Below are positions 22,366 to 51,294 of a stretch of DNA of 64,000 nucleotides, piece after piece (positions within the stretch are counted from its first letter, which is position 1; the number at the start of each line of letters is the position of its first letter). Location: the NCBI RefSeq assembly GCF_002224645.1, contig NZ_CP022121.1, positions 682,001-746,000 of the forward strand, written 5' to 3'. A program made the position numbers and the translations under genes. Origin of the DNA: Dehalobacterium formicoaceticum. GTDB taxonomy: Bacteria > Bacillota > Dehalobacteriia > Dehalobacteriales > Dehalobacteriaceae. The notes beneath the pieces are model-generated. The model was given only the letters and a program-made list of their open reading frames with translations. It was not told the origin of the DNA and did no database searches.

Positions 22366-22626
22366 GGTGTCCTCCTTAAATCCTTAAAAAAGAAAAAACT
22401 ATATTTTGCGAGTATGATTGATGAATATCTGTAGGATATGAATTGAAATAAAATAAAAGGGACAAAAAAATATCCACAATGATACGCACAAAATTAATAC
22501 GGTGGATAAGTAATTATTTAACATGTATATTTTATTTTATATCAATGATAGCAAAAAATATCCACAATTTCAACAGGCAAAAAATAAGTTATCCCCAAAC
22601 TTAATTTGATCTTTTTTTTCTATTCC
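22366..22626. other. oriC: replication origin, upstream part between dnaA and rpmH
   Basis: DnaA-box-like 9-mers: ATATCCACA at 22470-22478, TTATCCACC on the minus strand at 22501-22509, ATATCCACA at 22558-22566 and TTATCCCCA at 22589-22597, with AT-rich tracts between. The region also holds the divergent dnaA promoter, which was not resolved. Confidence 0.75.
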
Positions 22627-22655
22627 TTGACAGTTCTAAAGTGGTAAGATATAAT
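22627..22655 (+). promoter_or_regulatory. sigma-A promoter of rpmH
   Basis: Exact consensus hexamers TTGACA (22627-22632) and TATAAT (22650-22655) with a 17-base spacer, 66 bases before the rpmH start. It should drive rpmH, rnpA and probably the following genes. Confidence 0.93.
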
Positions 22656-22720
22656 TCTAATGCTAATGCTTGCTTGGAAGCGTGATTTTTAAAAGATAGA
22701 TGAAGGAGGATTTTTTTATT

Positions 22721-22855
22721 ATGAAAAGGACTTATCAACCAAAAAGAAAAAGACATCAGAGGGTACATGGTTTTTTAAAAAGAATGAGTGATAAAAGCGG
22801 ACGTAATGTTATTAAGAGAAGACGCGCTAAAGGAAGAAAGAGATTGTCTGCATAA
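22721..22855 (+). CDS. rpmH: 50S ribosomal protein L34
   Basis: A 44-residue, very basic protein starting [18 protein letters not shown] and ending [12 protein letters not shown], the invariant L34 pattern. AAGGAGG precedes the ATG. First gene after oriC, followed by rnpA as in nearly all bacteria. A small hairpin (AAGGCCG/CGGCCTT, 22854-22872) follows and may lower expression of the genes behind. Confidence 0.98.
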
Positions 22856-23011: not shown

Positions 23012-23343
23012 TTGTTGAAACAAGCATATCGGTTAAAAAGCCCGAAAGATTTTCGCCTGACATATAAAAAAGGCAAATCATTAGTTAATCCTTATTTAGT
23101 TTTGTATTTTCGTAAAAATCAGAAAAATACATATCGTATCGGCTTTTCAGTATCAAAAAAGTAGGAAAAGCTGTAATAAGAAATCGTGTTAAGAGAAAAT
23201 TAAGGGAAATTTGTCGTTTAAATGAAAAATTATTTTCAATTGGTTATGATTATATCTTTGTGGTCAGGGTAAGAAGTAAAGATGCTTCTTATCATAAACT
23301 TGAAAAAAATTTACTGGATTTAATCCATAAGATGAGAAAATAA
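23012..23343 (+). CDS. rnpA: ribonuclease P protein component RnpA, split by a -1 frameshift
   Basis: The protein subunit of RNase P, which matures tRNA 5' ends. A TTG at 23012 with AGGGGG upstream opens 50 codons ending ...GFSVSKK and TAG at 23162. From 23161 the -1 frame continues with [19 protein letters not shown], the RNR motif region, to TAA at 23341; together 110 residues, the normal length. The junction is A AAA AAG TAG (23155-23164) in frame, a canonical slippery heptamer; one missing A in a run of seven would explain it equally. RnpA is essential, so a functional product is expected, but homopolymer sequencing error cannot be excluded. Confidence 0.85.
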
Positions 23344-23344
23344 G

Positions 23345-23551
23345 ATGACTGGATTTTTGATTTTTTTTATTAGAATATATCAGAAAATAATATCACCAAT
23401 TTTACCTGGAAAATGCCGCTTTTACCCAACTTGTTCCCAATATTGGATTGATGCTTTGAATAAGTATGGTTTTTTTATTGGTGTCTGGAAGGGTTTAAAA
23501 AGGATAAGCAAATGTCACCCTTGGCATCCAGGTGGTTATGATCCTGCCTAA
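23345..23551 (+). CDS. yidD: membrane protein insertion efficiency factor YidD
   Basis: A 68-residue protein with an amphipathic N-terminus and the family core [20 protein letters not shown], then [19 protein letters not shown]. It helps YidC-dependent membrane insertion. The ATG is one base behind the rnpA stop, so translation is coupled. Normal length. Confidence 0.97.
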
Positions 23552-49588: not shown

Positions 49589-51294
49589 ATGAATCAGAAT
49601 AATAGTAATCCTCAAGTAGCGTATTTTTGCATGGAGTTTGGGTTGAGTGAAGAAATGCCTATTTATGCGGGGGGATTGGGTGTTTTAGCAGGTGATTATT
49701 TGAAAGCGGCTCGGGATGCTCAATTCCCTATGATCGGTATTGGGATTTTATGGGCCCATGATTATACGGAGCAATATATTAATGGAGAAGGACGCCCCTA
49801 TGATGTTTATCCCGAGTTTGATTACCCGATGGTGCGGGATACGGGGGTATCGGTGCATGTGAATGTGCGCGGTGAAGATGTGGAATGCAAGGTCAAAATG
49901 GTAGATTGTTACGAAAATGTACCCCTTTATCTTCTAGATACCAATATCCCCGGCAGCAACCATGGCTGGATGACCAATAAATTGTACGGCGGCGCTGCCC
50001 AAGATCGCTTAGCTGCGGAGATGATTTTGGGAATTGGGGGTATCCGTCTTCTGCGTGCTTTGGGTTTAGAGGTAGATCTTTACCACTTTAATGAAGGACA
50101 TGCTCTTTTTGCCGGGTTGGAATTAATTCGGGAGGAAATGGAGAAAAATGATCATCGTTTTGATTTGGCATGGAAGAAGGCAAAATCTCAGATTATTTTT
50201 ACCACCCACACCCCTGTAGCCGCCGGAAATGAGATCCATGACCACAATTTACTAAACTATATGGGAGCATACAATGGGCTAAATTACGAGGAAATGTGTC
50301 AAATTGGAGGTGATCCCTTTAATATGACAGCAGCCTCCCTCAGGTTATCATTTAAAGCGAATGCAGTATCTAAGCTCCACGGGCATACAGCCCGGAAAAT
50401 GTGGCAGGAGATTCCTCTTTCCACACCGATAATATCCATTACAAACGGGGTACATGAGGGGACTTGGCAGGATAAGCGCATGAAAGAAGCTTTTGATCGT
50501 TCTGAGGATCTTTTTGCCGTACATATGACGTGCAAGAAGGAACTTTTTAACTATATTGCTGAAAAAACCGGTCAAGTAATGGATCCGGAGGTGCTGACTT
50601 TAGGTTTTGCCCGCCGGGCCGCTCCTTATAAGAGGAGTGTCTGATTTTCAGGAATTCCGACCTTCTGGAACCTTTTATTTCCCATGGGAAGCTGCAGTTG
50701 ATTTTTTCCGGCAAGGCCCATCCCAATGACCAACTAGGCAAAGATATTATTGCTGATTTGGTTAAAATGGATCAGAAATATGGGAATCGGGTGGTCTTTT
50801 TAGAAAATTATAATATGGAAGTAGCCAAGCTCCTGGTACGGGGCTGCGACGTTTGGCTCAATAATCCGCGGCGTCCATTTGAAGCCAGCGGTACCTCGGG
50901 GATTAAAGCCGCCATGAATGGGGTACTGAACTTTAGTGTCGTAGATGGCTGGGTGGCAGAAGGACCGCAGCATGGTGTCAGTGGTTGGCTTTTGGAACAA
51001 GCCGCCCGACAGTCAGAAGTTTGGGATCAGGATGAAAAAGATCTTCAGGAATTGTACCAGGTACTCTTCCGTGAAATCCTGCCCACCTATTATCAGGATC
51101 GGGAACGCTGGAAGGAAATGATGCTTTCCAGTATTGATATGGCCCAGTGGCAATTTTCCTCCGCTCGGATGATCAGAGAATATTATGATGTGATGTACCG
51201 GCCCACCTTCCAGGCACTGGATTACTGGGAGGTAGCTCCATATATTTATCCCGGTTGGCTGGAAATTGAACATCAGCCCCAGATCACCCAGTAA
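49589..51294 (+). pseudogene. glgP: alpha-glucan (glycogen) phosphorylase GlgP, frameshifted
   Basis: The first part (49589-50644) runs from PQVAYFCMEFGLSEEMPIYAGGLGVLAGD to GFARRAAPYKR; the second frame resumes with LIFRNSDLL and continues through IFSGKAHPNDQ to 51294, including EASGTSGIKAAMNGVLN near the PLP-binding region. One base is missing around 50635-50641 (AGTG-TCTG, expected AGTGATCTG). Repaired, it is about 568 residues, the short archaeal/Thermotoga-type phosphorylase that releases glucose 1-phosphate from glycogen. As it stands, only the N-terminal 351 residues are made, so it is either inactive or the sequence has an error. Confidence 0.85.

Follow-up and report, generated by a model that had tools for sequence, protein, structure and literature searches.

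The window analysed here is a 64,000-nucleotide stretch of the Dehalobacterium formicoaceticum genome (NZ_CP022121.1, positions 682,001 to 746,000). It carries rnpA between rpmH and yidD, which is the usual order of the dnaA region. The features of the locus, in window coordinates, are listed below.

22721..22855, plus strand: rpmH (L34), intact, upstream of rnpA (TIGR01030)
23012..23164, plus strand: 5′ part of rnpA in the 0 frame, 50 codons to TAG (open reading frame; TIGR00188 2-50, E 1.7e-09)
23155..23160, plus strand: run of six A's (sequence); seven are expected in an intact gene (TCA AAA AAA GTA)
23155..23161, plus strand: A_AAA_AAG heptamer, in frame (sequence); presumed by-product of a lost A
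23162..23164, plus strand: TAG (sequence), which the Val-Gly codons GTA GG give once an A is lost
23161..23343, plus strand: 3′ part of rnpA, read in the −1 frame and containing the RNR motif (TIGR00188 51-107, E 1.8e-11)
23345..23551, plus strand: yidD, intact, downstream of rnpA (TIGR00278)

The spacer between dnaA (minus strand) and rpmH (plus strand), at 22366-22700, was AT-rich, held several DnaA-box-like TTATCCACA variants and is probably the replication origin. A second YidC-family gene was located far from the rnpA-yidD-yidC cluster (locus L037, G000:C1:3197197-3197964, minus strand).

In the list of open reading frames of the window, the 0 frame of rnpA started at TTG 23012 and ended at 23164. 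Window 23150-23165 reads GTATCAAAAAAGTAGG, and the junction codons in the 0 frame are TCA (23153-55), AAA (23156-58), AAG (23159-61) and TAG (23162-64). The −1 frame was open from 23161, encoded 60 residues ending in IHKMRK, and reached its stop at 23341-23343. Both halves fitted the NCBIfam rnpA profile (TIGR00188, 111 positions) in order and with nothing missing. As the two pieces were contiguous on the profile, the A run is the exact point at which the frames meet, no residue is lost, and one extra base at the junction would restore the frame. The first-pass annotation had described a frame that ends after 50 codons and resumes in −1, where the RNR motif lies, and the open reading frames and profile matches agreed with this exactly. 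Its slippery A_AAA_AAG followed by TAG was likewise present at 23155-23164, with the heptamer in the 0 frame. There was no second rnpA copy in the genome (3,766,545 bp, single contig), and an RNase P RNA of type A was encoded elsewhere in it.

The heptamer and the stop codon arise together from a single event. An intact TCA AAA AAA GTA GGA that loses any one A of its run becomes TCA AAA AAG TAG GA; therefore neither the heptamer nor the TAG counts as independent evidence, and their automatic appearance speaks against programmed frameshifting. Among 1,046 sampled genes of the genome, in-frame A_AAA_AAG was observed 157 times, inside open genes. The heptamer is thus common, and the rnpA copy stands out only through the frame break at that point. 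In-frame A_AAA_AAA_G was found 95 times in the same sample, and at 7 of the 95 the loss of one A would bring in a stop codon at once.

Other ways of reading through the junction were also considered. Transcriptional slippage on the A run, restoring the frame in part of the rnpA mRNA, is known from long A runs such as the nine A's of Thermus dnaX, but often at runs of at least 8 (PMC3711429). With a run of only six A's in rnpA, and 1,156 six-A runs in the sampled genes, we regard slippage as extremely improbable. Pyrrolysine genes are present in the organism (PMC6778437), which prompted a reading of UAG as pyrrolysine; it was rejected since the 0 frame reaches TAA four codons later. Reinitiation was rejected as well, as no ATG, GTG or TTG occurs in the −1 frame until GTG 23260, beyond the RNR motif.

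Alignment with relatives had been set beforehand as a test able to refute frameshifting. An rnpA match was found in 57 of 61 genomes of the relatives search, D. formicoaceticum included, and all 56 others showed one unbroken match. In a wider phylum sample, which partly overlaps the relatives set, 293 of 299 genomes had a match, and only that of D. formicoaceticum lay in two separate pieces; the other 292 had a single match each by per-genome counts. No other split rnpA was therefore seen in the 56 relatives or the 292 phylum genomes with a match. Among the matches listed, a single internal TAG occurred in the match of one genome (G083). The junction lysines were in frame at all 26 loci read in detail (two from the same genome), and their codons varied between AAA AAA, AAA AAG, AAG AAA and AAG AAG, with AAA AAA G in several. 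For relatives that gave no rnpA match, contig gaps are the probable reason; one of them, G001, gave no yidC match either.

Both halves of rnpA were compared with 'Candidatus Formimonas warabiya' DCMF and with the closest metagenome-assembled relative, giving pN of 0.14-0.22 and pS of 0.79-0.94; no dN/dS ratio is quoted because synonymous sites were saturated. Both halves remain under purifying constraint, with no decay in either. Such conservation speaks against an old pseudogene and is compatible with an undercall, a very recent deletion or recoding.

The first-pass annotation had offered two readings, programmed frameshifting and a missing A in a homopolymer. Under the former, −1 ribosomal frameshifting at A_AAA_AAG would set the amount of full-length RnpA, and recoding would underlie the supply of a core enzyme of RNA processing. 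In favour of this, the heptamer has the correct phase and, given a stimulator, ranks with the most efficient ones in E. coli (PMC4066793), and reading on in −1 gives RnpA at exactly its full length. E. coli dnaX, a proven case, resembles rnpA in its in-frame A_AAA_AAG with a stop close behind, although that stop is in the −1 frame in dnaX and in the 0 frame in rnpA. In dnaX a Shine-Dalgarno-like stimulator also lies upstream and a hairpin downstream, and there is conservation across nine genera (PMC3711429); none of these was found for rnpA. The 30 bases upstream, AAATACATATCGTATCGGCTTTTCAGTATC, contained no Shine-Dalgarno-like stretch, and the RNA directly downstream of the heptamer folded no better than shuffled sequences (z of 0.15 and −0.15, pseudoknot-free folding). 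A longer segment folded into a hairpin whose loop holds the A run (z of −1.76); this is not a stimulatory layout, and the hairpin seems to follow largely from conservation of the GFS...GKA codons. When stimulators are lacking, heptamers in E. coli increase frameshifting no more than about tenfold above a background of 0.055% (PMC4066793). A literature search pairing rnpA with frameshifting returned no paper. With relatives intact and signals absent, programmed frameshifting in rnpA is very unlikely. The same low probability applies to its narrower form, in which the six A's of strain DMC are genuine and its RnpA arises by frameshifting without classical stimulators, so that an essential gene would be recoded in this species alone. 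The missing A is the reading favoured here.

Further one-base losses were found in the same genome. We compared 1.464 Mb of D. formicoaceticum, the window included, with 1.4 Mb of DCMF (G003; 6,441,270 bp), which has an Illumina-corrected assembly (PMC6778437). The 287 genes that could be compared (92,233 aligned residues) included four with frameshifts, namely rnpA, glgP, ppk and tilS, and each was the loss of one base with conserved sequence on both sides. The glgP (glycogen/alpha-glucan phosphorylase), ppk and tilS genes were named from their protein sequences alone. The lesions other than rnpA, all from the DCMF comparison, are as follows.

Window 50630..50652, plus strand: glgP-like gene, one-base loss at AGTGTCTG, outside any homopolymer
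G000:C1:862631-862651, minus strand: ppk, T run one short
G000:C1:1080026-1080044, plus strand: tilS, C run one short

The run changes were A7 to A6 in rnpA, T8 to T7 in ppk and C6 to C5 in tilS. The glgP-like gene was 75% and 77% identical to DCMF on the two sides of its break. This break is probably an assembly error of the same type, although its position outside a homopolymer counts against an undercall. Since tilS and glgP have no classical slippery heptamer, recoding cannot be the common cause of the four lesions, which further weakens the frameshifting reading. In the reverse search, D. formicoaceticum open reading frames against DCMF, 0 of 286 genes were frameshifted after tRNA, rRNA-like and spacer hits had been set aside. 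The contrast between 4/287 and 0/286 is suggestive but falls short of significance (one-sided Fisher p of 0.062).

Several frameshift candidates were discarded on inspection. One at about 10.7 kb of the window, before tadA, was a tRNA gene read as protein; others were antisense or shadow frames, the rpsF-ssb spacer, tRNA clusters and an insertion-sequence transposase. Hits that recurred at several positions were taken, from the recurrence, to be rRNA operons.

The history of the assembly fits a lost base, since consensus sequences from PacBio data are known to drop single bases within homopolymers. The D. formicoaceticum DMC genome (CP022121) was produced from one SMRT cell of PacBio RS II P6-C4 data with Canu and Quiver, and the paper describes no short reads or short-read correction (PMC5597755). 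In the Quiver-polished 2.9 Mb genome of E. faecium ATCC 700221, Illumina data revealed 561 single-base homopolymer deletions (PMC4888979). That case resembles rnpA in its single-base homopolymer losses, Quiver polishing without short reads and broken conserved genes. It was proven by Illumina data, whereas the undercall here is one that we infer, and the glgP lesion is outside a homopolymer. The frameshifts confined to one genome in the GeneTack survey, likewise confirmed by homology, do not differ materially from rnpA, and the survey authors expect such cases to be sequencing errors (PMC3711429). Against an undercall, high-depth Quiver assemblies can be nearly perfect: in an Illumina check of two strains, one showed no error and the other one homopolymer deletion in the chromosome and one in a plasmid (PMC5797582).

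The main rival to the undercall is that the ATCC culture used for sequencing had itself recently lost the base, as a deletion that was either fixed or still segregating. RnpA is normally essential (general knowledge, from outside D. formicoaceticum), and tilS is usually essential too. Under a true deletion, two usually essential genes would be broken in one culture, and neither half of rnpA shows decay. A runs mutate readily, and survival could come from residual RNase P RNA activity, a mixed population or low-level spontaneous frameshifting; A_AAA_AAG without stimulators frameshifts at more than 0.10% in E. coli, so that trace RnpA would be possible (PMC4066793). We consider a true deletion improbable, though less so than recoding.

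The rnpA break thus very probably reflects one base undercalled at the A run in a PacBio-only assembly, rather than a regulatory device. Three things carry this verdict, namely how the genome was assembled, the other lesions in it and the unbroken rnpA of relatives, and they make seven A's in the molecule itself most likely; the conservation of both halves and the presence of RNase P RNA also count in its favour. The cell would then carry TCA AAA AAA GTA in rnpA, and its RnpA would be an ordinary protein of full length, about 110 residues, that works with the RNase P RNA encoded elsewhere in the genome. The slippery site would be there because the missing A left it behind.

From the four lesions, the loss rate was estimated at about 1 per 69 kb (QV of about 48), or about 54 losses genome-wide (95% interval 15-139). 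The DMC reference genome may therefore hold some tens of one-base losses, so apparent pseudogenes and missing proteins of this strain need to be checked against strain EZ94, whose hybrid Illumina/PacBio assembly (GCA_024705665) is at 98.6% ANI, or against the raw reads before any interpretation.
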